Origin: Chiayiivirga flava
GTDB taxonomy: Bacteria; Pseudomonadota; Gammaproteobacteria; Xanthomonadales; Xanthomonadaceae
Length of the DNA stretch: 64,000 nt
NCBI RefSeq assembly: GCF_014202825.1
Contig: NZ_JACHHP010000006.1
Coordinates: 62,001-126,000 of the forward strand
Direction of reading: 5' to 3'
Shown: piece by piece, positions 6,180-59,575 of the stretch
Position numbering within the stretch: the stretch's first letter is position 1
Layout of the letters: each line of letters opens with the position of its first letter
The notes under the pieces: generated by a model
The model's database searches: none
The model's input: the letters and a program-made list of their open reading frames with translations, nothing else
What the model was told of the DNA's origin: nothing
Program-made: the position numbers and the translations under genes

Positions 6180-6222
6180 AAGCCCCTCTCCCCGCGGGAA
6201 AGGGGGTGGGGAGAGGGTCCGG
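6180..6222. repeat. REP-like element, family B (left copy)
   Basis: A palindromic core CCCCTCTCCCCGCGGG followed by a TGGGGAGAGGGTC tail. It resembles the family B copies at 47364-47400 and 47552-47588. It forms a loose inverted pair with the copy at 6381-6455. No gene was found in 6078-6479. Confidence 0.6.
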
Positions 6223-42308: not shown

Positions 42309-43691
<1,383 letters not shown>

Positions 43692-44151: not shown

Positions 44152-45591
44152 TCATTCGAACCCGTCGCCGAACAGCGCGAGGCTGCCGAATTCGTGCGCG
44201 CCGATGTCCACCTCGGCGCCGACGATGCGCGTGCCGCCGCCCGCGTCCGTCGCGCCGAGTCCGCCGGGCGGAGCGCCGTCGCCCGCGTCGATCGCGACCG
44301 AGCCCGCGGCCGGCGCGTAGTTGCCCGCCGCGGGCGCGGCGAACGCCACCGGCACGTCGATCAGGTTGCTGCCGCGTGCCATCCATTCGGGCGGCAGGCT
44401 CGCCGTGCCGTGGCCGGTGACGATGGTGTTGAACAGCGAGCCCAGCTCGACGACCGGGAACCGATCGTTGCCGCGCATGCCCATGCCGTCGTTGTCGGCA
44501 ATGGTCACGTTGGTGATGTCCAGCGTCGACGCCGGCGTGTTGCCGTAGCTGCCGGCAAACAGGCCGTAGGCGGTGCCGATGCCCTGCGTGATTTCGGTGT
44601 CGCCCAGGTCCAGGCGGTCGCTGTTGCCGGTCGCCAGCAGCACGTGCGCGCGCGTGCCGAGCACGGCCTCGGAGACGTTGCCGCGCACGATGTTGCCGCG
44701 GATCGTGATCGACGCATCGATGCCACCGCCCGCACCGCCGGTGGTGGCGGAGAGCCCCACGCCCTGCGCGTTCACCACGGTCGCGTCCGCCGCCTCGACG
44801 ATGTTGGCGACGATGCGGTTGTGCAGCAGCTGCACCGACGACGCGCTGAACGCATAGAGCCACACGCCGGCGGCGTTGAGTTCGATGAACGGCGTGCTGC
44901 TGCCGGGCAGCATGCGCAGGCGGTTGGCGACGATGCGATTGTGCTCCAGTACGATGCCGGCTTCGTTGTCCGCCGTGGCATAGATGCCGCCGCCGGCCGC
45001 GCTTGCACCGGCCTCCAGGCTGTTGTCGCGAACGTCGCAGTCGCTGACCCGCACGCGGCTCGCACCGTTGGCGAAGATGTCGATGCCGCCTCCGGCGATC
45101 GAGTTTTCGGTGCTGCCGGCGTTGTCGCGCACCACGCAATCGCGCACCGTCAGCAGCCCGGTGCCCGAGGTGCGCAGCGAGAGGCCGCCGCTGTCGGCGA
45201 CGCGCTGACCGCCGAACACCGTGGCGTTGGAAAATTCGATCGCGCCGGACGCGGCGCGCAGCGTGAGCGGCCGCGCGTCGTCGCCGGGCAACACGGTGAA
45301 GGCGGTGGCCTCCGGGTCGGTGTGCTGCGCGTCGAACGCCGCGTTCCAGCCGCCGGAGATGGACAGCGACTTGTCGCCTTCGTAGTCGATGAAGGGTTTG
45401 TCGGTGAAGATGACGGCCTGCAGGCGGATCTCGTGGCTGGCGCCCGCGGTGGCCTCGGCATTCGCGACGGCGAGCGCGAGCGTCGCGAACGCACCGTCGG
45501 GCCCGACGGTGAAAACGTCCGCCTGTGCGGACGTACACAGCGCGAGCGCGAGCAGAACGCTGCCTGACGACGGGATGACGAAACGGCTCAT
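44152..45591 (-). CDS. Secreted right-handed beta-helix protein ending in GDGFE
   Basis: A 479-residue exported protein with a signal peptide (about 1-24, LALALCTSAQA). The body is made of Asn/Val/Gly-rich rungs typical of right-handed parallel beta-helices: IVRGNVSEAV, RDCVVRDNAGS, EHNRIVANRLR, LHNRIVANIV and ITNVTIADNDGMG. It ends AHEFGSLALFGDGFE. No pectate-lyase catalytic residues were recognised. It may be an adhesin or a polysaccharide-binding surface protein. The 13-bp direct repeat and hairpin at 45723-45782 lie just upstream. Confidence 0.75.
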   Translation of the reverse strand: MSRFVIPSSGSVLLALALCTSAQADVFTVGPDGAFATLALAVANAEATAGASHEIRLQAVIFTDKPFIDYEGDKSLSISGGWNAAFDAQHTDPEATAFTVLPGDDARPLTLRAASGAIEFSNATVFGGQRVADSGGLSLRTSGTGLLTVRDCVVRDNAGSTENSIAGGGIDIFANGASRVRVSDCDVRDNSLEAGASAAGGGIYATADNEAGIVLEHNRIVANRLRMLPGSSTPFIELNAAGVWLYAFSASSVQLLHNRIVANIVEAADATVVNAQGVGLSATTGGAGGGIDASITIRGNIVRGNVSEAVLGTRAHVLLATGNSDRLDLGDTEITQGIGTAYGLFAGSYGNTPASTLDITNVTIADNDGMGMRGNDRFPVVELGSLFNTIVTGHGTASLPPEWMARGSNLIDVPVAFAAPAAGNYAPAAGSVAIDAGDGAPPGGLGATDAGGGTRIVGAEVDIGAHEFGSLALFGDGFE

Positions 45592-45786: not shown

Positions 45787-47136
45787 CTAGGGCTGGTCGC
45801 GCAACCTGGCGAGGATCTCCGCGCGCGCTTCGCGCAGCACCGAATCGCGGTCGAGATCGGCGACGATGTCCTGCACCACGCGCTTGGGTCCGAGCTCGCC
45901 CCAGCTCTTGCCCTGCGCGAGGTAGCGCTCCGCGGCACGTGCGATGAGCAGGGTGGCATACCACGCCAGTGCACCCTGCGCACCGGCGGTGACGAGGGTC
46001 GAGAGTCCCGCGCTCGCGCCCTTGAGCGCGGACGCCACCAGATGCACGCCCCAGATCGCACCCATCAGCGCGGCGAGCTGCGCGGCGATCGTGGCGATGA
46101 GGCGCCCGGCCTCGCTGCGCGACAGCGGCAGGCCGTAGATGCGCGACAGGTGCATCACGAGCGCCACGTCCAGCGCGGCGGCGGCGAGCAGATCGGCGAC
46201 CGGGATCGGATTGAGCGCAACGGCCACGCCCTTGGCGAGGCAGTAGCTGCGCGTCACGCGCTCGGCGAGTTCGCGGCGCAGCGTGGTGAGCCGCCTGCAG
46301 GCCTCGTCCGACAGCCGGCCCGCGAACACTGCGGCGTTGAGCGCGGCGAGCGTTTTTCCCTCGGCATCGAGGATCGCGAAGATGCGATCCTGCAGCGCGG
46401 CGACATCGATCGGGCGCTCGCGCAGCAGCTCGCGCTCGCTGCCGTCGGGCTGCACCTGCAGCACGCGCTCGGCGCTCGGCAGCGCCATCACCTCGACGAT
46501 GTTTTCCGGCCGCACGCTGCCGCGCGCGTGCTCGACCAGGCGCGCGCGCAGCTCCGCGCGCTGGGTGGCGGTGTAGCGGTCGGCCTTGTTGAGTGCGAGC
46601 ACGATCGGGCGCTGCGTGGCCGACAGCGTCTTCAGCGCGTCGACTTCGACCGACGTCATGTCGCCATCGACCACGAACAGCACCAGATCGCTGCGGCCGG
46701 CAACATCGAAGGCGAGCTTCTCGCGCTGCTCGCCGGAGAGTTCGTTGATGCCGGGCGTGTCGATGAGGTGCACGCCGTCGGCGGCCGCCTCCTGCCAGCG
46801 CAGCAGGTTGGCCTGCGTGGTGGTGCCGTGCAGCACGCCAACGTCGAACGCGCGCTGGCCGAGCAGCGCGTTCAGCAGCGCCGACTTGCCGACGCTGACG
46901 CGACCGAACACGGCCAGATGGATGTGGCCGTGCTCGATCTTGTCGAGCATCGATTCGACCTGTGCGTAGTCGGCCGCAAGCGAGTCGCGCACGGCGGCAG
47001 GGATGGAGGGGTCGTCGAGCAGCGCGCGGAGGCTGCCGGCGGCCTGGTCGAGATGGTTGGTGCCGGTCGCGGTGTGCGCTGCGTCCGTGCCGCGCAGGCG
47101 CGCGGTGAGCTTGCGCCAGCGGTCACGCAGGGACAT
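45787..47136 (-). CDS. Membrane-associated GTPase with DUF697-like region (copy 1)
   Basis: A 449-residue protein. The Era/dynamin-like G domain occupies about 70-230: G1 GRVSVGKSALLN (Gly78, Lys84), G2 Thr in HGTTTQAN, G3 DTPGINE and G4 LNKADRY. The C-terminal 170 residues are hydrophobic and match the DUF697 style (VAVALNPIPVADLLAAAALD, GLPLSRSEAGRLIATI). The start MSLRDRWRKL at 47136 is preferred to an upstream frame. It is a paralogue of the GTPase at 49441. It is separated from the yceI genes by a 500-bp repeat region, so it is probably a separate transcript. Confidence 0.85.
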   Translation of the reverse strand: MSLRDRWRKLTARLRGTDAAHTATGTNHLDQAAGSLRALLDDPSIPAAVRDSLAADYAQVESMLDKIEHGHIHLAVFGRVSVGKSALLNALLGQRAFDVGVLHGTTTQANLLRWQEAAADGVHLIDTPGINELSGEQREKLAFDVAGRSDLVLFVVDGDMTSVEVDALKTLSATQRPIVLALNKADRYTATQRAELRARLVEHARGSVRPENIVEVMALPSAERVLQVQPDGSERELLRERPIDVAALQDRIFAILDAEGKTLAALNAAVFAGRLSDEACRRLTTLRRELAERVTRSYCLAKGVAVALNPIPVADLLAAAALDVALVMHLSRIYGLPLSRSEAGRLIATIAAQLAALMGAIWGVHLVASALKGASAGLSTLVTAGAQGALAWYATLLIARAAERYLAQGKSWGELGPKRVVQDIVADLDRDSVLREARAEILARLRDQP

Positions 47137-47363
47137 GTGGGAGTGCCGTTGCTGTCGGAATTGCCGCGGGGTGGTGCGGCGGGTGAACAGGGTTACGCGG
47201 AACTGCCGCGGGATCACGCGGGATGGTCGGCGTTGTCGAATTCGGTCGACGGTGCAAGCCCGGACCCTCGCAGCAAGCCCTCTCGCCGAGGAAGAGGGGC
47301 TTCAGCATTTCGTGGTCTCGAATGCTTGTCGGATGTCGCGTATCTGTTCCAGTCAATGACGCT

Positions 47364-47400
47364 GCCCCTCTCCCTGCGGGAGAGGGGTTGGGGTGAGGGT
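47364..47400. repeat. REP-like element, family B (left copy of inverted pair)
   Basis: The hairpin CCCCTCTCCCTGCGGGAGAG is followed by GGGTTGGGGTGAGGG. It is the exact reverse complement of the right copy at 47552-47588 apart from a few bases. No gene was found in 47137-47634. Confidence 0.8.
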
Positions 47401-47551
47401 TCGGGATCAACGCAGCGTCCGAGGCTCGCGCGAACCATGCCAAGCGCATGAGGTTGGCGCCGTTGCTGCTGCCGGCGTGGACGGCGTGCGCGCAGAATCG
47501 GTAGCACGTGACGGCCGTCTTGAGCGACGCCCAGAGCCTCGCGTTGCCCGG

Positions 47552-47588
47552 ACCCTCACCCCAACCCCTCTCCCGGCGGGAGAGGGGC
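47552..47588. repeat. REP-like element, family B (right copy of inverted pair)
   Basis: ACCCTCACCCCAACCCC, then the hairpin CTCTCCCGGCGGGAGAG. With the left copy it encloses about 150 bp. Such face-to-face REP pairs are the form mobilised by RAYT transposases in other proteobacteria; no RAYT gene lies in the window. Confidence 0.8.
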
Positions 47589-47634: not shown

Positions 47635-48192
47635 CTACTTCGCAGTCAACTGCAGCGTGGTCTTCACCACCACCTCGTGCGTGATCGTGGTGTCGTCGGC
47701 CCAGTCGCCGGTGCCGACGTTGAACTGGGTGCGGTCGAGGATGGTCTCGCCGGCGAGCGTCGCCTTCGTCGCGTCGGCTGTCCAAGTGAACATCAGGGCG
47801 ACCGGCTTGCTGACGCCGTTGAGTTCCAGCGTGCCGTTGGCAGTGAACTTGCCGGGTGCGCTGGCGATGAATTCGGCGGCCTTGAAGCGCGCCTGCGGCT
47901 GCGTTTCGGTGTTGAAGAATTCGGCGGTCTGCAGGGTCTCGTCGCGGTCGGCGTTGCCGCTGTCGGCACTGGTCAGGTCGATGCTCACGTCGAACGACGA
48001 GCCGGCGAGGTCGGCCGGATCGAAGACGATCGTCGCCTCGAATGTCCTGAAGGTGCCGGTGAACGGTTCGCCGTCGGCGCTCGCGGCAAAGGTGAGCGTG
48101 GAGGCGGTCGGGTCGGTGGTCCACGCGGTGGCCGCGAAGGCCGGGAGCGGGGCGCCGAGCAGCAGCACGGCAAGGGCGGTTCGAAGGTTCAT
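47635..48192 (-). CDS. YceI family periplasmic protein (first copy)
   Basis: A 185-residue lipocalin-like polyisoprenoid-binding protein with a signal peptide (1-20, APLPAFAAT). The YceI strand pattern is clear: WTTDPTASTLTFAASADGEP, FDPADLAGSSFDVSIDLTS, ETLQTAEFFNTETQPQARFK and ANGTLELNGVSKPV. The family binds isoprenoid lipids such as quinones. The gene overlaps the b561 gene by 4 bp and is the last of the operon that begins with the GTPase at 50940. Confidence 0.92.
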   Translation of the reverse strand: MNLRTALAVLLLGAPLPAFAATAWTTDPTASTLTFAASADGEPFTGTFRTFEATIVFDPADLAGSSFDVSIDLTSADSGNADRDETLQTAEFFNTETQPQARFKAAEFIASAPGKFTANGTLELNGVSKPVALMFTWTADATKATLAGETILDRTQFNVGTGDWADDTTITHEVVVKTTLQLTAK

Positions 48193-48767
48193 GCGGCAGG
48201 GTCCCGTGGCTTGGGTTCGAAGGAGGCGGGCAGCATCCGCACGAGGGTGCGGTCGCGCACGACGAAGTGGTGATACAGCGCTGCGCCGATGTGCGCGGCC
48301 AGCAGCGCGAGCAGGATCCAGATGCCGGTCTCGTGCATGTCGTGCGCGAGGCCGCGCAGGTCGCGGTCCGGTGCGGCGAGCTTGGGCACGGTGAACAGGC
48401 CGAACCAGGTGAGCGCGCGCAGACCGCTCGCCGAATCGTACAGCCAGCCCGAGATCGGCATCAGGAACGCCATCGCGTAGATCGCCCAGTGGGTGAGCCT
48501 TGCGATCCATTCCTGCCATGTCGGCGTGCCCGGCACCGGGCGCGGCGCACCGGCCCACAGCCGCCAGCCGAGCCGCACGAGCATCAGCGCGAGCACGGTG
48601 AGGCCGGTGGACTTGTGCAGGTCGAACACCCAGAAATACTTCGGGCTTTTTGGCACTTCGTCGAGCAGGAAGCCGAGCACGGCCATGCCGAGGATCAGCA
48701 CGGCGATGGTCCAGTGCAGGGCCTGGCTGACCCAGCCCCAGCGTTGGTCGGTGTTGCGCAGTGTCAT
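48189..48767 (-). CDS. Cytochrome b561 family protein
   Basis: A 192-residue di-haem membrane protein with four helices. Likely haem ligands are the histidines in SQALHWTIAVLI, FDLHKSTGL, RLTHWAIYAM and AAHIGAALYHHF. It moves electrons between quinol and a periplasmic acceptor. E. coli has the same b561-yceI pairing (yceJ-yceI), which suggests cooperation with the lipid-binding YceI proteins. Overlaps on both sides couple it to yceI copies. Confidence 0.93.
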   Translation of the reverse strand: MTLRNTDQRWGWVSQALHWTIAVLILGMAVLGFLLDEVPKSPKYFWVFDLHKSTGLTVLALMLVRLGWRLWAGAPRPVPGTPTWQEWIARLTHWAIYAMAFLMPISGWLYDSASGLRALTWFGLFTVPKLAAPDRDLRGLAHDMHETGIWILLALLAAHIGAALYHHFVVRDRTLVRMLPASFEPKPRDPAA

Positions 48768-49444
48768 GCGGGCTCCGTGGCGGTGTGCGGGGAGGACGTG
48801 GCGGGATTGTCGTCGCTTTCGTCGCGGGTTGCGCGCTTGCGCGATGCCTCGACCTCGATGCGCAACTCGACGGCATCGCCTACCGTGCGCAGGTTGTCGT
48901 CCATGCCGAAGTCCGACCGTTTCAGCGTGGCGGTGGCGGAGAAGCCGGCCGTCGTGCGCAAGGTCAGCGGGTTGCGGCCATGCCGGTTGAGCGTGACGTC
49001 GAGCGACAGCGGCAGCGTGGTGCCGCGCAGGGTGAGGTTGCCGTGCACGCGGGCCGTGGTGTCGCCGGTGGGCTCGACGGCGGTCGAAACGAAGCGCGCC
49101 TGGGCATGGTCGTCGAGATCGAAATAGTCGCGCTTGAACATGCGCTCGCGCCATTTCGCGTCGCCCAGGTCCAGGCTCGCAATGTCGACGGTCACATCCA
49201 CGCGCGCGCTGCGCCAGTCGTCGGGATCGAACCACAGGCTGCCGCTCGGGTGCGAGAAGGTGCCGAGCGATTTCGAGAAGCCCAGATGGTCGATCGCGAA
49301 GACGATGCGCGTGTGCACCGGGTCGAGTTCGTAGTGCTGCGGCTTTGCGAATGCGCCGGCGGCGGCCAGCAGGCAGGGCAGTGCCATCACGCGAAGCCGG
49401 CGGCCGCGGCGTGTGCGATGCTCGGTGCGACGATGGGCAGTCAT
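48764..49444 (-). CDS. YceI family periplasmic protein (second copy)
   Basis: A 226-residue relative of the first yceI product. It has a longer N-terminal leader with an arginine-rich start (MTAHRRTEHRTRRGRRLRV) and a hydrophobic core MALPCLLAAAGAFA; a Met at residue 20 may be the true start. The domain shows HYELDPVHTRIVFAIDHLG, WFDPDDWRSARVDVTVDIAS and RDYFDLDDHAQARFVST. A 25-residue hydrophilic tail (RKRATRDESDDNPATSSPH) is not part of the fold. Its start overlaps the GTPase stop. Confidence 0.9.
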   Translation of the reverse strand: MTAHRRTEHRTRRGRRLRVMALPCLLAAAGAFAKPQHYELDPVHTRIVFAIDHLGFSKSLGTFSHPSGSLWFDPDDWRSARVDVTVDIASLDLGDAKWRERMFKRDYFDLDDHAQARFVSTAVEPTGDTTARVHGNLTLRGTTLPLSLDVTLNRHGRNPLTLRTTAGFSATATLKRSDFGMDDNLRTVGDAVELRIEVEASRKRATRDESDDNPATSSPHTATEPA

Positions 49445-50940
49445 GGGATCTGGTCCGTGGATCGGGTGGGGTTGCGCATGCCGTCGAGCGCGATCTGCGC
49501 GATGGCGAGCAGGCGTTCGCGCGCCGGCTGCGCGAGGGTTTCGCGGAAGGCTTCGAGGGTGGCGTCGCGGTCGAGTGCGTGGGTGTGCGCGAGCGTCGCG
49601 GCCAGCGCGCGGCCGAGGCTGTCGAAGATCAGGCCGTACGCCACCGCGTGCAGCAGGCCGCCGCCGAGCGTGCCGACCCCCGGAAAGGCCTTGAGTCCGT
49701 TGCCGACCACCGCGAGCGTGATCGAGGTGCTGGTGCGTGCGAGGCTGCCCGCGCGCGCAAGCAGATCGTCGACATCCACCTCGCGCGCCTTGAGCTCGTG
49801 CAGCGCGCACAGCTCGCGCGTGAGTGCGGTGGCGAGTGCGCCCTGGATCACGAGGTCGGTGCCGGGCGCGACGGCCGCGAGCGCGCCGAGCACCGCACGC
49901 CGCGTGTACTTATTGACGATGGCGATGCTGCGCTGCTCGCGCAGCGCGCGTTCGCCGTCGGCGAGGTCGGCGTCCACACGCGCCAGCAGCGCCGCCTCGC
50001 GGCCGGGTTCGAGCATGGCCAGGTCGGCGCGTGCGATGCGCTGCAGTTCGCGCTGCAGCAGGTCGATCTGCGCCGCCGCCTCGCGTTGCACGAGCTCGCG
50101 GCGGCCATCGGGCCATTCGCGCGACACCTGCTCCTGGTGGCCGGCGCTCACCGGCACGATGCGCGCGCCGAGCGCGCCGTACCGGTCGCGCAGCGTCTGC
50201 AGCAACGCGGCGCGCTCGTCGTCGCGGTAGCGGTCGGACTTGTTGAGCGCGAGGATCAGCGGACGGCCGTAGTGCGCCAGCGCACGCAGTTCGCCGTCCT
50301 GGCTGCGTGTCAGGTCGCCATCGGCCACGTACACGAGCGCATGCGAACGCGCGGCCTCGGCGCGCGCGAGCGAGGCGTGTTCCATGTCGCCCGCCTCGCC
50401 GATGCCGGGCACGTCGGCCACCACCAGCCCGGCGCCGTCCGGCAGCACACCGCGCTGGCGTTGCACGGCCGTGGTGGTGCCGCCGACCACGCCCACCGCA
50501 CTCGTCGCGTCCGGTGCGAGTGCGCGCAGCAGGCTGCTCTTGCCGCTGGAGATGTCGCCGAAAAGCGCGACGTCGAGCGTGGCGGCCGCGCGGCGGCGAT
50601 CGAGCTCGGCCAGTTCGTCGCGCGCGATGCGCGCAGGCGCCACGTCCGGTTCGAGCCGCGCGATGCGCTGCTCGATGGCGTTGCGGTCCAGCGGCTGCGC
50701 GCGCGGCGCGCGGGCCGCGCGCGGGCGCAGCAGCCGCCACACGCCCCAGCCGGCGCCGAGGCCGAGCGCCGCGAGCAGGGCGAGGAAACCGTAGCGCATC
50801 CACGCAGGCATCGCGTCGAGTCGCTGCCAGATGGCGAGAGCGGCATCGGTGGCCTGCAGCAGCGTCATCAGCAGCATCGCCACGCCCACGACGATCGCAA
50901 GCGCGAGCAGCACACGGAGCGGTTGACTGGGTCGGGCCAT
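49441..50940 (-). CDS. Membrane-anchored GTPase (copy 2)
   Basis: A 499-residue GTPase with two N-terminal membrane helices (about 9-30 and about 50-70, YGFLALLAALGLGAGWGVW). The G domain is about 120-270: G1 GDISSGKSSLLRAL (Gly128), G2 GGTTTAVQR, G3 VPGIGEAG and G4 LNKSDRYRD. The rest is a hydrophobic/helical DUF697-like region (GNGLKAFPGVGTLGGGLLHA). It is the first gene of a minus-strand operon with yceI, b561 and yceI, each overlapping the next by 4 bp. A GTPase in a quinone/electron-transfer operon is unusual. Confidence 0.87.
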   Translation of the reverse strand: MARPSQPLRVLLALAIVVGVAMLLMTLLQATDAALAIWQRLDAMPAWMRYGFLALLAALGLGAGWGVWRLLRPRAARAPRAQPLDRNAIEQRIARLEPDVAPARIARDELAELDRRRAAATLDVALFGDISSGKSSLLRALAPDATSAVGVVGGTTTAVQRQRGVLPDGAGLVVADVPGIGEAGDMEHASLARAEAARSHALVYVADGDLTRSQDGELRALAHYGRPLILALNKSDRYRDDERAALLQTLRDRYGALGARIVPVSAGHQEQVSREWPDGRRELVQREAAAQIDLLQRELQRIARADLAMLEPGREAALLARVDADLADGERALREQRSIAIVNKYTRRAVLGALAAVAPGTDLVIQGALATALTRELCALHELKAREVDVDDLLARAGSLARTSTSITLAVVGNGLKAFPGVGTLGGGLLHAVAYGLIFDSLGRALAATLAHTHALDRDATLEAFRETLAQPARERLLAIAQIALDGMRNPTRSTDQIP

Positions 50941-51108
50941 GAGCCTCGCTGCGGCGGTGGGGCGTATGTGGCCCTAGTCTAGGCAATAACGTGCGGCAGG
51001 GCGCACCGGTGTGCTGCGCCACGCTGCGGGGGATGCGACGATGCGGCGCGCACCGTGCAACGGGGCCGGGCGCGACGCATCGGGACGATTCGGACAGGAG
51101 TGGCAACG

Positions 51109-54100
51109 ATGAGGCAAGGCATCGCCGCGTGGATGGCCGGGCTCGGCCTGCTGCTGTGCGGCGCGGTGCAGGCGCTGCCCGCGCTGCCGCAGGCGCCGCT
51201 GTTCGACGTGGTCGGCACCGAGGACGGCCTGCCGTCGCGCACGGTGAACAAGCTCGCGCAGGACCGCGCCGGCTACCTGTGGGTCGGCACGGCCGATGGT
51301 CTGGCGCGCTACGACGGCGTCGCGTTCCGCCTCTACCAGCACGATCCGGACGACCCCGCGTCGCTGCCGGGCAACGTGGTGGAGACGCTGCACGTGGATG
51401 CGCAGGATCGCGTCTGGATCGGCGTGGAAGGCCACGGCATCAGCCTGCTCGGCGCGGACCGCGGCGGTTTCCGCCATTTCCGCGCCGCCGACGACGCGCG
51501 CTTCGCGCTGGCCGACGTGTGGGCCATTGCCTCGGCGCCGGACGGCACCCTGTGGTTCGGCGGCTACGGCGGCGGGCTCTACCGCTACGTGCCGGACAGC
51601 GATGCGGTGACCATCTTCCGTCACGATGCCGCCGATGCCGCGAGCCTCGCCGCGGATCACGTTCTCGCGCTGGGGTTCGATGCTGCCGGCGTGTTGTGGA
51701 TCGGCACCAGCGCGGGCCTGCAGCGGTTCGAGGACGATGCGTTCGTCACCGTGCCGTCGCCGCAGGCGGGCACCGCGGCGATGGTGCTCAGCCTCGCGAA
51801 CGATGCGGGTGGTGCGCTGTGGATCGGCACGCGCGCCGGGCTCGATCGCTTCGACGGCCAGCGTCGCCTGCCGGTGGCCGCGCCGGCCGGGGCGCAGCTG
51901 CAGGCCGGCGTGACCGCGCTGCTGCGCGACCGGCGCGGCAGCCTGTGGCTGGGCACGCGCAGCGGCGTGAGTCTGGCCGACGCACCCGGCGCCGCGCCGC
52001 GCGCGGTGTGGGGCGCGGGCCAGCCGTTCGGCACGGTGCGGCCGGTGTCGGTGTTCGATGTGCTCGAAGACCACGAGGGCGGTCTGTGGTTCGCCGCACC
52101 CGGCATCGGCCTGCTGCACGTGCCGCCGCGCTGGCGCAATTTTTCCGCGCTGCGCAGGGGCCCGTCTGCGGCCGGTGGCCTCGGTGCCGACCGCATCCGT
52201 GGCGCGAGCGAAGCCGACGATGGCAGCCTGTGGTTTGTCGCGGACGAGGGCCTGCTCGAACGCGTGGACACGGCCGGCCGGGTCGAACGCCATCTGGCCA
52301 CGCCGCAGACCGCGCTGCCCAATCCCGTGCTGCGCTCTGTGCTCGCCGCGGGCGATGCGGTGTGGATCGGTTACCAGGACGGCCTGACGCGGTACGAGCC
52401 CGCCAGCGGCGCGCTGCACCACTGGCCCGCCGACGGCAGCGCCGACGCGCCGCCGGGCGGCACGATCGACCTGATGCAGCGCGCACCGGACGGCACGCTG
52501 TGGCTCGCCATCAACGGCGGCGGCCTGCAGCAGCGCGACAGCGCCGGGCGGGTGCTCGGCACGTGGCTCGCCGGTCCCGACACGGGCGTGCCTGCGCCGG
52601 ACACCGAGGACATCGCGTTCGGCCCCGACGGCGCGACGTGGATCAGCGGCGAGGCCGGCCTGCATCGTTTCGACGCCGGCGAACGGCGCTTCGAGCGTGT
52701 CGCGGGCTCGCCCCAGCAGCGCGTGTTCGGCTTTGCGTTCGCGCCCGACGGCACGGTGTGGACGCAACGCCTCGGTGCGCTGGAACAGTTCGAACTGCGG
52801 CAGGGATTCCTGCACCTGCTGCGGCGTGTGGACGCGAAGGACGGCTTCGCCGCGCTCGAGGTCGGCGGCCTGGTCATCGATCCGGCCGGCAGCCTGTGGA
52901 TGACGAGCGCGCGCGGCCTCTGGCACTACGTGCCGGGCAGCGGAACCCTGCGTCGCTACGGCGTGCGCGACGGGCTGGCCAACCAGGAATTCTCCAGCAA
53001 CCCGCCGCTGCGGCTGCGCGACGGCGGCATCGTCGCGCCGACGATGGAGGGTGTGGTCCTGTTCGAGCCGCGGCGCATCGAGTCCGACACCGCCCCGCCG
53101 CGCCTTTCGATCGAGCGCATCGACGTGCGCCGCGACGGCGCGGTGTTGCCGCTGGATCCCGCCGCGCCCGCCGCGTTGCGCCACGACGACCGCGAACTGC
53201 ACGTGCAGGCGCGGCTGTTTTCCTTCGTCGATCCGCAGGCCAACCGCTACCGCTTCCGCCTGCTCGGCTACGAGCGCGACTGGATCGAGGTCGGTGCCAG
53301 CGGCGAACGCGTGTTCTCGCAGCTGCCCACCGGCGAGTACGTGCTGCAGGTGGAGGGTGCGAATGCGGACGGCGTGTGGTCGGCGTCGCCGCTGCAGGTG
53401 CCGGTGCGCGTGCTGCCGGCGTGGTGGGCCACGGGCTGGGCGTGGTTCGGCTACGTCGCCGCGGCGGCGCTGTTGCTGCTCGCACTGGCGTGGCTCTACC
53501 GTCGCCGCGTCGCTCGTCGCCACGCGGCCGAGCTTGCCGACCAGCAGCGTCGCCTCGCGCTGCAGGCATCGGACGCGAAAACCACCTTCCTCGCCACGAT
53601 GGGGCACGAGATCCGCACCCCGATGACCGGCGTGCTCGGCATGACGGAACTGCTGCTGCGCACACCGCTGGACGCGCGCCAGCGCGACTACGCCGATGCG
53701 ATCCAGCGCTCGGGCGAGCTGATGCTGCGCCTGGTCAACGATGCGCTGGATCTGGCGCGCATCGAGGCCGGCAAGCTCGAACTCGCGCGCGAGCGCGTCG
53801 ATCTGCATCTGCTCGTGCGCGATGTCGCCGATCTGCTGCGCGCGCTGGCCGAGCGCAAATCGCTGGCGCTGCGCGTCGACATCGATGCGGATGCGCCGCG
53901 CTTCGTCGACGGCGATCCGCTGCGCCTGCGCCAGATCCTGCTCAACCTGGGCAACAACGCGATCAAGTTCACCGAACGCGGCGGTGTGGACATCGCGCTG
54001 CGCGCCGCCGACGCGCCCTGCACCGTGGCGCTGGTGGTGCGCGACTCGGGTCCGGGCCTGGACGCCGAACAATGCGCGCGCCTGTTCCGTCGCTTCGAGC

Positions 54101-54678
54101 AGGCCGACGGCGCGGCCACCGCGCAGCGCTACGGCGGCAGCGGCCTGGGCCTTGCGATCTGCCAGGAACTCGCCGCCGCGATGGGGGGGCGCATCGACGT
54201 CACAAGCGCGCCGGGCGAGGGCTGCACCTTCCGCGTGCGCTTGCCGCTCGCGCCGGCGGCAGACGCACCGGCGCCCGCGCCCGCGGCGGGTGCGCCCGCC
54301 GCCGCGCCGGCGCAGCCCGCAGCGGCCCGCACGATCCTACTGGTGGAAGACGACGCCACCGTCGCCGCGGTCGTCCGCGGCCTGCTCGACGCCCTCGGCC
54401 ACACCGTGATCCACGCGTCGCACGGCCTCGCCGCGCTCACCGAGCTCGACCTGCACCCGATCGATCTTGCGTTCCTGGACCTCGATCTGCCGGGCATCGA
54501 CGGTCTCGACCTCGCGCGCCTGCTCCGCGCCCGCGGCCACACCGTTCCGCTGATCGCGCTCACCGCGCGCGCCGACCCGCAGGCCGAGCCGATGGCACAC
54601 GCGGCGGGCATGACGGCGTTCCTGCGCAAGCCGGTCAGCGCGGCGCAGCTCGAGCGCGCGATCGCGTCCTGCACCTGA
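51109..54678 (+). CDS. Hybrid sensor histidine kinase with beta-propeller sensor
   Basis: A 1189-residue hybrid kinase. A signal segment (MRQGIAAWMAGLGLLLCGAV) precedes a periplasmic sensor of repeated propeller blades (about 30-690: GYLWVGTADGLARYDG, GTLWFGGYGGGLYRY, GVLWIGTSAGLQRFE and others) and a Y_Y_Y domain (about 690-765). One membrane helix follows (about 772-795). The histidine is His833 in MGHEIRTPMTGVLGM; the ATPase domain has NLGNNAIKFTERGG and GLGLAICQEL. The receiver (about 1080-1185) has Asp1124 in FLDLDLPGIDGLDL. No DNA-binding domain is attached, so a separate output protein is needed. The ATG at 51109 follows CAGGAG by 9 nt. Ligand unknown, possibly a glycan by analogy. Confidence 0.93.
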   Translation: MRQGIAAWMAGLGLLLCGAVQALPALPQAPLFDVVGTEDGLPSRTVNKLAQDRAGYLWVGTADGLARYDGVAFRLYQHDPDDPASLPGNVVETLHVDAQDRVWIGVEGHGISLLGADRGGFRHFRAADDARFALADVWAIASAPDGTLWFGGYGGGLYRYVPDSDAVTIFRHDAADAASLAADHVLALGFDAAGVLWIGTSAGLQRFEDDAFVTVPSPQAGTAAMVLSLANDAGGALWIGTRAGLDRFDGQRRLPVAAPAGAQLQAGVTALLRDRRGSLWLGTRSGVSLADAPGAAPRAVWGAGQPFGTVRPVSVFDVLEDHEGGLWFAAPGIGLLHVPPRWRNFSALRRGPSAAGGLGADRIRGASEADDGSLWFVADEGLLERVDTAGRVERHLATPQTALPNPVLRSVLAAGDAVWIGYQDGLTRYEPASGALHHWPADGSADAPPGGTIDLMQRAPDGTLWLAINGGGLQQRDSAGRVLGTWLAGPDTGVPAPDTEDIAFGPDGATWISGEAGLHRFDAGERRFERVAGSPQQRVFGFAFAPDGTVWTQRLGALEQFELRQGFLHLLRRVDAKDGFAALEVGGLVIDPAGSLWMTSARGLWHYVPGSGTLRRYGVRDGLANQEFSSNPPLRLRDGGIVAPTMEGVVLFEPRRIESDTAPPRLSIERIDVRRDGAVLPLDPAAPAALRHDDRELHVQARLFSFVDPQANRYRFRLLGYERDWIEVGASGERVFSQLPTGEYVLQVEGANADGVWSASPLQVPVRVLPAWWATGWAWFGYVAAAALLLLALAWLYRRRVARRHAAELADQQRRLALQASDAKTTFLATMGHEIRTPMTGVLGMTELLLRTPLDARQRDYADAIQRSGELMLRLVNDALDLARIEAGKLELARERVDLHLLVRDVADLLRALAERKSLALRVDIDADAPRFVDGDPLRLRQILLNLGNNAIKFTERGGVDIALRAADAPCTVALVVRDSGPGLDAEQCARLFRRFEQADGAATAQRYGGSGLGLAICQELAAAMGGRIDVTSAPGEGCTFRVRLPLAPAADAPAPAPAAGAPAAAPAQPAAARTILLVEDDATVAAVVRGLLDALGHTVIHASHGLAALTELDLHPIDLAFLDLDLPGIDGLDLARLLRARGHTVPLIALTARADPQAEPMAHAAGMTAFLRKPVSAAQLERAIASCT

Positions 54679-54693: not shown

Positions 54694-55650
54694 TCAGTCC
54701 GCACGCACGCCGGCGGACGGCCGTCGCCGCCGTGCCGGCGGTGCCGGGTCCGGTGCGAGCAGCACCGGCGTCAGCGTCTGCAGCACGCGTGCGAGTTTTT
54801 CGAGGAAGTCGCCCATCGCCGAACTCTTGCGCCACACCATCGCGATCTGGCGGCTGGGTTGCGAATCGGAGAAATGCAGCAGATGAATGTCGGTGGAGCG
54901 TGGCACCGGCGGCTGCACCGCCAGCATCGGCAGCAGCGTGATGCCGACGCCGGACGCCACCATCTGGCGCAGGGTTTCGAGGCTGGTGGCGCGGAAGCCG
55001 GACTTTTCGCCGGCACCGGCCATGTGGCACACGTCGAGCGCCTGATCGCGCAGGCAGTGGCCATCCTCGAGCAGCAGCAAGCTTTCGCTGGCAAGTTCGT
55101 CGAGGGCGAGCGCGTCGCGCTTCGCGAAGGGGTGCGAGCGCGGCACGGCCAGCAGGAACGGCTCCTCGAACAGGAACTCGACGTGCAACCGGTCGTCGTG
55201 CAGCGGCAGCGCGAGGATGCCGGCATCGAGCCGGCCTTCGCGCAGCTGGCGCAGGATCTCTTCGGTTTTCTCCTCGACCAGCAGCAGTTCCAGGCGCGGA
55301 AACCGGGCGCGGATCGGTGGCACCACGTGCGGCAGCAGGTAGGGGCCGAGGGTGGGAAAGATGCCCAGGCGCACGCTGCCGGCTTCGGGGTCGGTGCTGC
55401 GGCGCGCGGTTTCCTTCAGTTGCTCGACGTCGGCAAGGATGCGCCGCGCGCGGTCGGCCACGTCGCGGCCGACAGGGGTCAGCATCACGCGGCGCGGGGC
55501 GCGTTCGATCAGGGTCACGCCCAGTTCTTCTTCGAGCTTGCGGATCTGGGTCGACAGCGTGGGCTGGCTGACGAACGTGGCCTCGGCCGCGCGACCGAAG
55601 TGGCGATGGTCGGCCAGCGCGACGAGGTAGCGGAGATCGCGCAGATTCAT
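54694..55650 (-). CDS. oxyR: Hydrogen peroxide-sensing regulator OxyR
   Basis: LysR-family activator of peroxide defence genes. The 318 residues carry a winged helix at the N-terminus (FVSQPTLSTQIRKLEEEL) and the redox pair Cys199 and Cys208 in DGHCLRDQALDVC, at the same residue numbers as in E. coli OxyR. FRATSLETLRQMVASGVGIT is also conserved. The C-terminus has a long basic/proline tail. It is convergent with the hybrid sensor gene and divergent from a repeat element. No katG or ahpC adjoins. Confidence 0.96.
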   Translation of the reverse strand: MNLRDLRYLVALADHRHFGRAAEATFVSQPTLSTQIRKLEEELGVTLIERAPRRVMLTPVGRDVADRARRILADVEQLKETARRSTDPEAGSVRLGIFPTLGPYLLPHVVPPIRARFPRLELLLVEEKTEEILRQLREGRLDAGILALPLHDDRLHVEFLFEEPFLLAVPRSHPFAKRDALALDELASESLLLLEDGHCLRDQALDVCHMAGAGEKSGFRATSLETLRQMVASGVGITLLPMLAVQPPVPRSTDIHLLHFSDSQPSRQIAMVWRKSSAMGDFLEKLARVLQTLTPVLLAPDPAPPARRRRPSAGVRAD

Positions 55651-56326: not shown

Positions 56327-58138
56327 ATGCGCGAAACAGTTCGACGATCGGGCGCGTGGCGCCGCGTCTTCGTGGCGTGCGCTGCGTGCCCGTTGGCGGT
56401 CGCAGTCGCCCATGCCGGCCCGTTGCCGGCGATTTTCGCCAGCGGCTTCGAACGCAGCATCGACCGCCCCGACAGCGATGCCGAGGCCGCGCGTTTCCTC
56501 GACCAGGCCACATTCGGCGGCCGTCTCGACGACATCGCGCACCTGCGCGAGGTGGGCTACGACGCGTGGCTCGACGCGCAGTTCGCCGCCGGCATGTCGC
56601 TGCAGGCGCCGTTTCTCGACTACATCGCCACGCTGCCCGCGGGCGAGAACGGCGTCTACCAGGGCCAGCGTCTGGAAGCCTGGCTCATCCACGCCGCGCA
56701 GACGCCGGATCCGAGCAACCCGCTGCTGACGCACGACGACCAGCTGCGTCAGCGCGTCGCGTTCGCGTTGTCGGAGCTGATGGTGGTGTCCGACCGCAAC
56801 GCCGCGCTCACCTTCCAGCCGTGGGCGCTCGCGCACTACAACGACACGCTCGCCACCCATGCCTTCGGCAACTATCGCGAGCTGCTCGAAGCGGTGACCC
56901 TGCACCCGGCGATGGGCCGTTTCCTCAGCATGCTCGGCAACCGCAAATCCGACGCCGCGCTCAACATCCGGCCCGACGAGAACTACGCGCGCGAAGTGCT
57001 GCAGCTGTTCTCGATCGGCCTGCAGCTGCTGCATCCGGACGGCACGCCGGTGTTGGTCGGCGGCCATCCGGTGCCGACCTACGACCAGAACGTCGTGCGC
57101 GGTTTCGCCCACGTCTTCACCGGCTGGAACTTCGCCGGCTGCACCGTCGCCGACTACGGCGACTGCGCGCCCGGCAATCCGGACGAACCGCCGTGGCGGC
57201 AACCGATGCAGCCGGTGGAAGCGTTCCACGACACGAGCGAGGACAAGTTGCTGCTCGACTACACGCCGCAGACACCGGGCGGCCACATCGTGCTGGCCGC
57301 CGGCGGCGACGCGCGCGAGGAACTGGAGTTCGCGCTCGACACCATCTTCCACCATCCCAACGTCGGTCCGTTCGTTGCGAAGCATCTGATCCAGCGCCTG
57401 GTCACGAGCAACCCGTCGCCGGCCTACGTGCAGCGCATCGCCGCCGTATTCGACGACGACGGCAGCGGCGAGCGCGGCGATCTGGGCGCCGTGGTGCGGG
57501 CGCTGCTGCTCGACGACGAAGCCCGCACCGGCCATCTGGACGCGCCCGATACCTTCGGCAAGATGCGCGAGCCGATCCTGAAGATCGTGCGGCTGTGGCG
57601 CGCCACCGATGCGCGCTCGGTCAACGGCCGCGTGTTCCGCTACAGCTTTCCCGACGATTACGGCCAGCTGCCGCTGAGCGCGCCGTCGGTGTTCAATTTC
57701 TTCAAGCCGACGTTCGCGCAGCCGGGCGAGATCCGCGATGCGGGATTGGTGTCGCCGGAGTTCCAGATCGCCACCGACACGCAGCTGGTGTCGGCGCCGA
57801 ATGCGTTGGGGTTTCGCCTGTTCCTGTTCTACGTCGGCAGCCGCTACAGCTATGCGTGGGAGAACGGTGCGCCGGTGCCGAGCGAGATGCTGTCGGACTA
57901 CGCCGCGCTGAAATCGCTGGCGTCCGATCCGGCGGCGCTCGTCGACCGGCTCGATCTGCTGCTGCTGTCGGGCGGCATGTCGGACTACATGCGCGACCTG
58001 CTGATCGCGCGACTCGACGGCACGCCGCCCGACAGCATTCCCGGGCAGGACGGCGGTGCGCCCGACGTATTGTTGTGGCGGGTGCAGCAGGCGCTGTACC
58101 TGATCCTGACGTCGCCCGAATTCGCCATCCAGAAATAG
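56327..58138 (+). CDS. DUF1800 family protein
   Basis: A 603-residue exported protein of the DUF1800 family. A long basic start (MRETVRRSGAWRR) and a hydrophobic core form the signal peptide, ending AVAHA. The mature chain begins GPLPAIFASGFERS, echoing the GDGFE tails seen elsewhere. Family marks are AARFLDQATFGG, QRVAFALSELMVVSD, NYRELLEAVTLHPAMGRFLS, RPDENYAREVLQLFSIGL and FVAKHLIQRLV. The DUF1501 gene follows 18 bp downstream, the standard pairing for these two families. Function unknown in the family, though linked with exported, often Tat-dependent systems. Confidence 0.9.
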   Translation: MRETVRRSGAWRRVFVACAACPLAVAVAHAGPLPAIFASGFERSIDRPDSDAEAARFLDQATFGGRLDDIAHLREVGYDAWLDAQFAAGMSLQAPFLDYIATLPAGENGVYQGQRLEAWLIHAAQTPDPSNPLLTHDDQLRQRVAFALSELMVVSDRNAALTFQPWALAHYNDTLATHAFGNYRELLEAVTLHPAMGRFLSMLGNRKSDAALNIRPDENYAREVLQLFSIGLQLLHPDGTPVLVGGHPVPTYDQNVVRGFAHVFTGWNFAGCTVADYGDCAPGNPDEPPWRQPMQPVEAFHDTSEDKLLLDYTPQTPGGHIVLAAGGDAREELEFALDTIFHHPNVGPFVAKHLIQRLVTSNPSPAYVQRIAAVFDDDGSGERGDLGAVVRALLLDDEARTGHLDAPDTFGKMREPILKIVRLWRATDARSVNGRVFRYSFPDDYGQLPLSAPSVFNFFKPTFAQPGEIRDAGLVSPEFQIATDTQLVSAPNALGFRLFLFYVGSRYSYAWENGAPVPSEMLSDYAALKSLASDPAALVDRLDLLLLSGGMSDYMRDLLIARLDGTPPDSIPGQDGGAPDVLLWRVQQALYLILTSPEFAIQK

Positions 58139-58156
58139 CGCACGGACATCGCCGCC

Positions 58157-59575
58157 ATGCTCCGACACGTGAACCGTCGCACCTTCCTGCGCCGCGCCAT
58201 CCACTCCGCGCTCGGCGGTGCCGGGTTGTATGGCGCGCTCGGCAACCTGCAGCTCGTCGCCGCCGCCACGCGCGTACGGGGCGGTGTCTTTCCGGACTAC
58301 AAGGCGCTGGTCTGCGTCTACCTGTTCGGCGGCAACGACAGCTTCAATACCGTGGTGCCGCACAGCGCACCGCACTACGCGCAGTATGCGGTATCGCGTC
58401 CGGCGCTGGCGCTGTCGTCGGCCCAGGCGGCGATGCTGCCGCTGACGCCGCAGCCTGCGCAGGGTGGCTTGCCGGGCGGGCCGGCGCGCGATCGCGACGG
58501 CGCCATCGTCGGCTGCAGTCTGCATCCGGGCATGGACGGGCTGCGTGCACTGTTCGACAACCGGCATGCGGCCATCGTCGCCAATGTCGGCACGCTGCTC
58601 GGGCCGATCACGCAGGCCGGCTACCAGGGCAATGCGCCGCGCCCGCCGCAACTGTTCTCGCACGAGGACCAGACCAATTTCTGGCAGACCTCGCGTCCGG
58701 ACGACGCCAATGCCGATGGCTGGGGCGGACGCATCGCCGATCTGCTCCACACCGGCAATCCCGGCACGCAGCTGCCGATGACGATCTCGCTCTCGGGGCA
58801 GGCGCTGTTCCAGCGCGGTGCGAGTGTCGACCAGTACGTGATGGGTGCGTACGGCGTGCCGCCGATCGACTATCTCGGCGACTACCAGAACGAACTGGGC
58901 GTGCAGACGTTCCATGCGCTGCACGCGGACGGCACGCAGGCGCACATGTTCGAGCGCGCCTACGCCGGCGCGACGCGGCGCGCGATCGACACCTACCGGA
59001 CGGTCAACGCCGCGCTCGCCGGAGCGCCGGTGCCGGCGGGGTTTCCCGACACGTACCTGGGTGCGCAGCTGCGCCAGGTGGCGCGCCTGATCGGCGTGCG
59101 CGATGCGCTCGGCATGCGTCGCCAGGTGTTCTACGTGAGCCTCGGCGGCTTCGATACGCACGACAGCCAGATCGAGGTGCATCCGGGCCTGCTCGCCGAT
59201 CTCTCGCAATCGCTCGCCGCCTTCCACGCGGCGACCGTCACGCTCGGCGTGGCGCAGCAGGTGACCGCGTTCACCGCGTCGGATTTCGGCCGCACCGTGT
59301 CGACCAACGGCGACGGCACCGATCATGGCTGGGGCGGGCACCATTTCGTCGTCGGCGGCGCGGTGCGCGGCGGACGTTTCTACGGCACGCTGCCGTCGCT
59401 TGCGCAGTCCGGAAATCCGGACGATGCCGGCTACGGGCAGATCATCCCGACGCTCGGCGTCGACCAGTATGCCGCCACGCTGGCGACGTGGTTCGGCGTC
59501 GGCGCGAGCGAACTGGCCGACTTGTTCCCGGCCCTGGGCGAGTACGACAGCAGCGATCTGGGTTTCATGCTCTGA
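58157..59575 (+). CDS. DUF1501 family protein (Tat-exported)
   Basis: A 472-residue protein with a twin-arginine signal (NRRTFLRRAIHSALGGAGLY) ending near residue 36. The sulfatase/phosphatase-like DUF1501 body has VCVYLFGGNDSFNTVVPHS, LHPGMDGLRALFDN, NFWQTSRP, VFYVSLGGFDTHDSQIEVHP and DFGRTVSTNGDGTDHGWGGH. The His/Asp set in the last two resembles the alkaline-phosphatase-fold metal site. It is coupled with the DUF1800 gene. Substrate unknown. Confidence 0.9.
   Translation: MLRHVNRRTFLRRAIHSALGGAGLYGALGNLQLVAAATRVRGGVFPDYKALVCVYLFGGNDSFNTVVPHSAPHYAQYAVSRPALALSSAQAAMLPLTPQPAQGGLPGGPARDRDGAIVGCSLHPGMDGLRALFDNRHAAIVANVGTLLGPITQAGYQGNAPRPPQLFSHEDQTNFWQTSRPDDANADGWGGRIADLLHTGNPGTQLPMTISLSGQALFQRGASVDQYVMGAYGVPPIDYLGDYQNELGVQTFHALHADGTQAHMFERAYAGATRRAIDTYRTVNAALAGAPVPAGFPDTYLGAQLRQVARLIGVRDALGMRRQVFYVSLGGFDTHDSQIEVHPGLLADLSQSLAAFHAATVTLGVAQQVTAFTASDFGRTVSTNGDGTDHGWGGHHFVVGGAVRGGRFYGTLPSLAQSGNPDDAGYGQIIPTLGVDQYAATLATWFGVGASELADLFPALGEYDSSDLGFML

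Follow-up and report, generated by a model that had tools for sequence, protein, structure and literature searches.

Sequence comparison indicates that a gene cluster of Chiayiivirga flava is a conserved extension of a known antioxidant system, in which a cytochrome b561 and two YceI lipocalins are accompanied by two GTPases that are undescribed there in the open-licence literature searched. The cluster lies in a stretch of 64,000 nucleotides (contig NZ_JACHHP010000006.1, positions 62,001 to 126,000), which we call the window. Four minus-strand genes, GTPase1 (49441-50940), YceIa (48764-49444), an LcoA-like cytochrome b561 (48189-48767) and YceIb (47635-48192), meet in an ATGA at every junction, that is, in 4-bp overlaps at 49441-49444, 48764-48767 and 48189-48192. 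The preliminary description of this DNA had given the names, coordinates and overlaps of these genes correctly, and Pfam supports all four (MMR_HSR1 at 9.4e-12 for GTPase1; PF04264 at 3.7e-40 for YceIa and 3.3e-32 for YceIb; PF01292, Ni_hydr_CYTB/b561, at 4.2e-33 for the b561). It had overlooked GTPase2 (45787-47217, minus strand), a fifth gene on the same strand that begins 417 bp downstream of YceIb by the listed open reading frame, and a hybrid histidine kinase gene (51109-54678, plus strand) divergent from GTPase1. The start of GTPase2 may lie further in, since relatives begin near residue 28, and the gap to YceIb would then be longer. A scan for sigma-70 promoters returned none, versus 0.1 in shuffles, and a scan for terminators returned one, versus 2.3 in shuffles.

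The three genes between the GTPases, here called the triad, resemble a published operon of Burkholderia cenocepacia, which consists of lcoA (b561) and the YceI genes bcnA and bcnB (PMC9113575). Mutants of lcoA and bcnA show raised lipid peroxidation, YceI proteins are described with bound ubiquinone-8 and other isoprenoids, and the authors proposed that the b561 re-reduces ubiquinone in the lipocalin (PMC9113575). Among solved structures, 5IXG is BcnB and 5IXH is BcnA (PMC9113575). YceIb, which has a signal-peptide-like start (hydrophobic segment 3-25), matches 5IXH best of 11 solved sequences, with 72.6 bits versus 44.2 bits for 5IXG. YceIa scores 75.2 bits with 5IXG and 58.7 bits with 5IXH, and it scores higher with 7BWL (83.8 bits) and 1Y0G (78.7 bits) than with 5IXG. 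The sole solved match of the b561 is the cytochrome b561 5OC0 (E = 2.2e-13), which we take to be E. coli CybB, and its histidines 18, 51, 93, 145, 159 and 166 are invariant in 15 sequences. Both the GTPase and the second YceI protein had been thought to lie outside the described system. Because the YceI-b561-YceI part resembles the published one, two YceI proteins beside a b561 are not new; novelty stays with the GTPases, for which no description was found, and no paper that treats YceI, b561 and GTPase together was found in the open-licence literature searched.

The five-gene arrangement is widely conserved. Contigs of named genomes were scanned with an alignment of GTPase1, which gave 319 relatives (a single-protein scan of the same kind gave no match); the best 80 loci were kept, and the locus tallies below cover those 80. 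These loci were fetched by GTPase1 alone, and 40 of them hold all five genes, 39 in the order GTPase1-YceI-b561-YceI-GTPase2, hence the arrangement is beyond chance. A divergent kinase precedes the ordered genes in 37 loci and is not in the stretch in two, and the fortieth locus (L037) has all five genes and the kinase in another order. Ordered loci include those of Tahibacter, Rudaea, Dokdonella, Luteibacter, Dyella, Rhodanobacter, Oleiagrimonas, Aquimonas and Chiayiivirga, and four of the 39 (L050, L057, L062 and L076) have one junction of more than 800 bp. The other loci comprise 18 with GTPase1 and GTPase2 adjacent and no kinase-profile match in the stretch, 13 with only a kinase divergent from GTPase1, and nine that are partial or rearranged, such as L110, which lacks b561 and YceIb. 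Thus, adjacency of the GTPase to yceI-b561 is kept across many genera of Lysobacterales, which refutes the possibility that it occurs in this strain only. Conservation does not extend to the 4-bp overlaps: judged from profile envelopes rather than proven starts, a start giving a 1- or 4-bp overlap is possible in the 40 complete loci at seven GTPase1-YceIa, eight YceIa-b561, 19 b561-YceIb and six YceIb-GTPase2 junctions.

The two GTPases tend to be present together and absent together. Among 198 Lysobacteraceae genomes, GTPase1 was found in 10, the window's included, each with a second match, which the neighbourhoods identify as GTPase2 in the nine others; the remaining 188 gave no GTPase1 match at 1e-10 in a search that also detects GTPase2 (at most seven candidates scored per genome). 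Of 397 Lysobacterales genomes, 153 matched the GTPase1 profile at 1e-25, 150 of them at least twice. In 370 gammaproteobacterial genomes, GTPase1 (>240 bits) was present in 52, with GTPase2 in 51 of them; other matches, at about 40-55 bits, were read as ordinary GTPases and were not counted. The genes lie within 500 bp on one strand, with no triad between them, in 47 of the 52 genomes. In two, namely the window's genome and another from the same order, about 2.2-2.5 kb separate them; two more have them on different contigs, and GTPase2 was not found in one.

For 17 of the 18 adjacent-pair loci, the records name no Lysobacterales but Woeseiaceae, Thiotrichales, Thiothrix, Chromatiaceae, Sedimenticola or plain Gammaproteobacteria. 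A YceIb-type protein at 1e-6 is present in six of these 17 genomes, four of which have a b561 next to the YceI match or sharing its frame, away from the GTPases; none was found in the other 11, all metagenome assemblies. The eighteenth locus (L066) comes from a Rhodanobacter assembly, a different contig of which carries a b561-YceI-YceI set. A conserved neighbour that could name a function for the pair was also sought in the 18 loci, and the widest cluster reaches just six. It lies about 1.3-4.6 kb downstream of the pair (e.g. L108:14211-16757), and its scanned member is a glycerol-3-phosphate acyltransferase (GPAT-type); four further clusters, each in four loci, have scanned members of DUF885, DsbA-like, rhodanese-type and UPF0227/hydrolase-like kinds. 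These clusters were dropped as a clue to function because they recur mostly in the same few loci.

GTPase1 (499 residues) has an N-terminal hydrophobic helix or helices, with one strong hydrophobic segment at 4-38, a small G domain at about residues 119-305 and a helical, DUF697-like C-terminal part. GTPase2 (476 residues) combines a G domain (MMR_HSR1, 4.2e-19) with DUF697 (PF05128, 1.1e-28; 100.5 bits versus a cutoff of 27.7), has weaker hydrophobic segments at 330-395, and matches Dynamin_N (3.7e-12; 47 bits versus a cutoff of 27) with a best stretch of 33 residues. The GTP-binding motifs G1, G3 and G4 are intact in both, with G128, G133-K134, D176, P178-G179, K234 and D236 invariant in 40 sequences of GTPase1 and G105, G110-K111-S112, D153-T154-P155-G156, N210-K211 and D213 invariant in 34 sequences of GTPase2. 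Profile alignment of the two by hhalign (E = 2.4e-50, 355 columns including the C-terminal part) identifies them as ancient paralogues, and ties GTPase1 to DUF697 via GTPase2. The window's GTPase1 has no Pfam match to DUF697 at 0.01, and two orthologues scanned gave 21.5 bits (L098, under the cutoff) and no match (L108). The best whole-protein match of both is the NCBIfam slr1306 family NF049994, at 89.4 bits for GTPase1 and 154.9 bits for GTPase2; membership was rejected, both being far under the cutoff of 490 bits. Going by a cited title, slr1306 is said to be linked to CO2 concentration.

Predicted models of GTPase1 and GTPase2 have predicted local distance difference test (pLDDT) scores of 88.5 and, as a mean, 85.3. 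The GTPase2 model aligns with yeast Fzo1 (Z score 20.3, root-mean-square deviation 5.4, 282 aligned), mitofusin 1 (19.7, 6.5, 294) and the bacterial dynamin-like protein BDLP (17.1, 8.9, 285) over residues of about 42-458, and BDLP is its top match in Foldseek (1.2e-7). For GTPase1, whose fold matches are dominated by the G domain, the first two Foldseek matches are immunity-related (IRG) GTPases, which align along about 450 columns but with a low TM-score. Among multi-domain matches, the predicted fold of GTPase2 thus appears nearest to the mitofusin/bacterial-dynamin type, and that of GTPase1 less clearly so. Several results count against this likeness. Whole-length TM-scores of GTPase2 with dynamin-type proteins are low (0.25-0.36), and the single G-domain proteins YsxC (Z score 19.9) and Era (Z score 19.2) tie with mitofusin. 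GTPase1 scores 21.7 bits with Dynamin_N, under the cutoff of 27, and in a second structure comparison it is led by Era, over the G domain alone (117-322). Because G-domain proteins reach equal Z scores and the second look at GTPase1 returned the G domain, we liken both proteins to the dynamin/mitofusin members and do not file them there. We have moderate confidence that GTPase2 may work like a small dynamin/mitofusin-type GTPase, and low confidence that GTPase1 may do so.

As a tentative explanation, to which we give a little less than an even chance, we propose that the locus is an envelope-stress unit of two modules, one being the antioxidant triad with its sensor kinase and the other a pair of membrane GTPases that remodel or repair the inner membrane. 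In the first module, by analogy with the Burkholderia model, the b561 would re-reduce quinone carried by a periplasmic lipocalin, and the lipocalin would quench lipid peroxyl radicals. In the second, two paralogous, membrane-associated GTPases would act jointly; their likeliest form is a small heteromeric machine of dynamin/mitofusin type, which would tether, remodel or repair inner membrane harmed by the stress that the triad detoxifies. The divergent kinase would control the operon. From a signal-peptide-like start, this kinase runs through a Reg_prop propeller, Y_Y_Y and one transmembrane segment to HisKA, HATPase_c and a receiver; its hydrophobic segments span residues 4-27 and 775-798, numbered from 51109, and no DNA-binding domain is among its Pfam matches. 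We infer the start at 51109; the open reading frame opens at 51055, and a codon-based caller chose 51133. The proposal draws on the frequent five-gene loci and their order, on the pairing and joint absence of the paralogous GTPases, on the predicted fold of GTPase2, and on what is described for bacterial dynamin pairs and for E. coli YcjX-YcjF. A bolder version, which we consider unlikely, is that a two-component GTPase machine of mitofusin-like kind was assembled around the anti-lipid-peroxidation system; a single unit under kinase control would then quench lipid radicals and also remove or reseal oxidised membrane. If true, a bacterial membrane repair pathway would be physically coupled to redox defence.

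Three observations weigh against a two-module unit with a common task. The triad is absent from the fetched stretches of the 17 adjacent-pair loci whose records name no Lysobacterales. Among the 30 best-scoring Lysobacteraceae b561 loci, GTPases accompany three and are missing from 27. Moreover, most of the 40 complete loci have GTPase1 and YceIa only loosely joined, the median distance from the stop to the profile start being 107 bp. Because there are pairs with no triad nearby and triads with no pair, a mechanistic link between the modules is not required. The same observations favour a serious rival, shared regulation without shared mechanism, in which the GTPase pair and the triad do unrelated envelope jobs in one stress-induced operon that answers the same kinase signal; we place it on the unlikely side. 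Split genomes bear on it in two directions. Twelve of the 13 genomes with a GTPase1-only locus were searched (all but L036), and 11 have GTPase2 elsewhere, each time beside b561-YceIb. YceIa is present too in 10 of these 11 (nine full YceIa-b561-YceIb-GTPase2 blocks and G087), G113 has b561-YceIb-GTPase2 without a called YceIa, and no good GTPase2 was found in the genome search of G207. In these 11 genomes GTPase1 is kept beside the kinase, apart from b561-YceIb and GTPase2, as unrelated jobs under one signal would allow; however, mere co-regulation of the GTPase pair does not favour a GTPase2 that is beside b561-YceIb in 11 of 11 cases, nor a sandwich order that is kept over long divergence.

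Loci with a triad and no GTPases bear on two further alternatives. A b561 profile at 1e-15 has a match in all of 119 Lysobacteraceae genomes, the family being broad and some matches being other b561 proteins. In the 27 GTPase-less loci noted above, a kinase of the same kind is divergent from YceIa-b561 in every case and YceIb is present in 26, and their genomes gave no GTPase match in the Lysobacteraceae search at 1e-10. According to one alternative, the GTPases serve the operon as sensor or switch; their nucleotide state could, for instance, gauge the condition of the membrane and feed the divergent kinase. Such a role would suit the position of GTPase1 next to the divergent kinase gene in 59 of the 80 loci (patterns summed), the 13 split ones included. 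Yet the kinase needs no GTPase, because it keeps its place beside the triad in 27 of 27 GTPase-less loci, and the 18 adjacent-pair loci have no kinase-profile match; we therefore regard a sensor role as improbable.

The other alternative, raised in the preliminary description, is that the GTPase drives assembly of the b561 with haem, or loads YceI with quinone at the membrane. This idea agrees with the gene order and, within the window, with the 4-bp overlaps, as well as with the GTPase hydrophobic segments, which could touch the inner membrane, and with the ubiquinone-8 and other isoprenoids described in YceI proteins (PMC9113575). Against it, YceIa and b561 persist without GTPases in 27 of the 30 best b561 loci, 17 GTPase pairs stand without a triad nearby, 11 of them in genomes with no YceIb-type match at 1e-6, and at 0.01 neither Pfam nor NCBIfam gave either GTPase a match to a family related to haem or quinone. 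Since each module occurs alone, control of haem or quinone delivery is disfavoured, and we think it very unlikely.

The distribution of the two modules may reflect their history. A tree built from 81 concatenated triads requires a minimum of two changes of the GTPase label, which involve both genes each time, and none of 500 shuffles was as low; the GTPase-less loci fall into a crown group of 23 and a separate set of 3. The simplest reading is that both GTPases were jointly lost twice, a direction that we infer, since the tree has a midpoint root and samples only best-scoring loci. Two once-separate modules would have merged, the GTPase pair being the older state, and the pair would later have been lost as a unit. 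The many Lysobacteraceae without both GTPases are ready comparison strains. In addition, the locus offers a handle on an uncharacterised GTPase pair that is found in 51 of 370 sampled gammaproteobacterial genomes, and on DUF697, which is named in no title or abstract of the six open-licence papers found to mention it.

Between YceIb and GTPase2 the window contains a pair of inverted 42-nt repeats (47364-47588), whose arms at 47364-47405 and 47547-47588 are 93% complementary. In G036 the five genes GTPase1-YceIa-b561-YceIb-GTPase2 are contiguous, with 4-bp overlaps at all four junctions, hence a local insertion of repeats probably accounts for the gap in the window. The repeat is GC-rich and palindromic, of the CCCCTCTCCC..GGGAGAGGGG type, at 47277-47588 and 6183-6205; the gap holds two near-perfect inverted copies and a decayed third, and one more copy lies near 6.2 kb. 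Its core palindrome occurs at three places of the window (6183, 47365 and 47565) with at most two mismatches, versus 0 expected.

Other genes surround the locus. A gene at 42309-43691 (minus strand), presumably of the L-serine ammonia-lyase type, has a close relative within the fetched stretch of 30 of the 80 loci, and therefore synteny reaches past GTPase2. Between it and GTPase2, at 44152-45591 (minus strand), is a gene for a beta-helix protein with a choice-of-anchor Q domain; no matching gene is called at that place in G036. On the other side, an OxyR gene (54694-55650, minus strand; NCBIfam equivalog, 336.9 versus a cutoff of 329) is convergent with the kinase gene. It was dropped as a redox link because an OxyR relative at 1e-30 is present in just three of the 80 loci. 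Further on is a two-gene unit at 56327-59575 (plus strand), presumably DUF1800-DUF1501. Two loci of other Gammaproteobacteria have relatives of its first gene (L059:3943-5637 and L086:3981-5732), 45% identical and at a distance of about 3.3 kb from the GTPase pair, possibly by chance.

Besides the slr1306 family, three known systems can be compared with the window. The YcjX-YcjF pair of E. coli has a gene for a P-loop-type protein followed, with a 4-bp overlap, by a gene for a DUF697 inner-membrane protein, and the 27-kb stretch that contains them also includes psp and tpx genes. In some species, ycjX and ycjF are described as linked to the phage-shock response (PMC8125068); in PMC5596341, ycjF appears just in a strain table. 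In a Pfam scan, YcjF matches DUF697 and no G domain, and YcjX matches DUF463 and not MMR_HSR1. Unlike these, both window GTPases carry MMR_HSR1 and neither matches DUF463, and the window pair was not counted as YcjX/YcjF, which would combine a DUF463 P-loop protein with a DUF697 protein lacking a G domain. Because profile comparisons of GTPase2 with YcjF, GTPase1 with YcjF and GTPase1 with YcjX gave no significant match, the link to YcjF is the shared Pfam family DUF697.

Bacterial dynamins are usually encoded as side-by-side pairs in operons (PMC6104087), and such proteins gather at membrane damage, with DynA and IniA reported to respond to membrane damage and antibiotics (PMC8844932). Like the dynamin-like systems Cj-DLP1/2, IniA/IniC, DynA and LeoA, the window encodes two paralogous GTPases together, both with G1, G3 and G4 motifs, and the model of GTPase2 is, among multi-domain matches, nearest to mitofusin/BDLP-type folds. 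The side-by-side pairing is seen in the 47 gammaproteobacterial genomes noted above, whereas the triad intervenes in the window. The window GTPases differ from dynamin-like proteins in their smaller size, Era-like G domain and DUF697-type C-terminal part, and GTPase1 also in its Dynamin_N score below the cutoff.

The nearest likeness of the triad is to the LcoA-BcnA-BcnB system, in which, as in the window, a b561 and two YceI lipocalins share one operon, the b561 is beside a BcnA-type YceI (here YceIb, with a 4-bp overlap), and a BcnB-type second lipocalin is present (here YceIa, which of the Burkholderia pair is nearer to BcnB). The order is lcoA-bcnA-bcnB in Burkholderia but BcnB-like, b561, BcnA-like in the window, and because of this difference we call the triad, as judged from homology, a relative of that system and not the same operon. 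Unlike the Burkholderia operon, the window triad is flanked by two GTPases, with a hybrid histidine kinase divergent from them; the word GTPase is absent from the main text of the LcoA-BcnA-BcnB paper (PMC9113575). According to its authors, further protein components of the LcoA/BcnA system are yet to be identified (PMC9113575). The GTPase pair and the sensor kinase, which travel with the triad in many genera, are direct candidates for these missing components of defence against lipid peroxidation.

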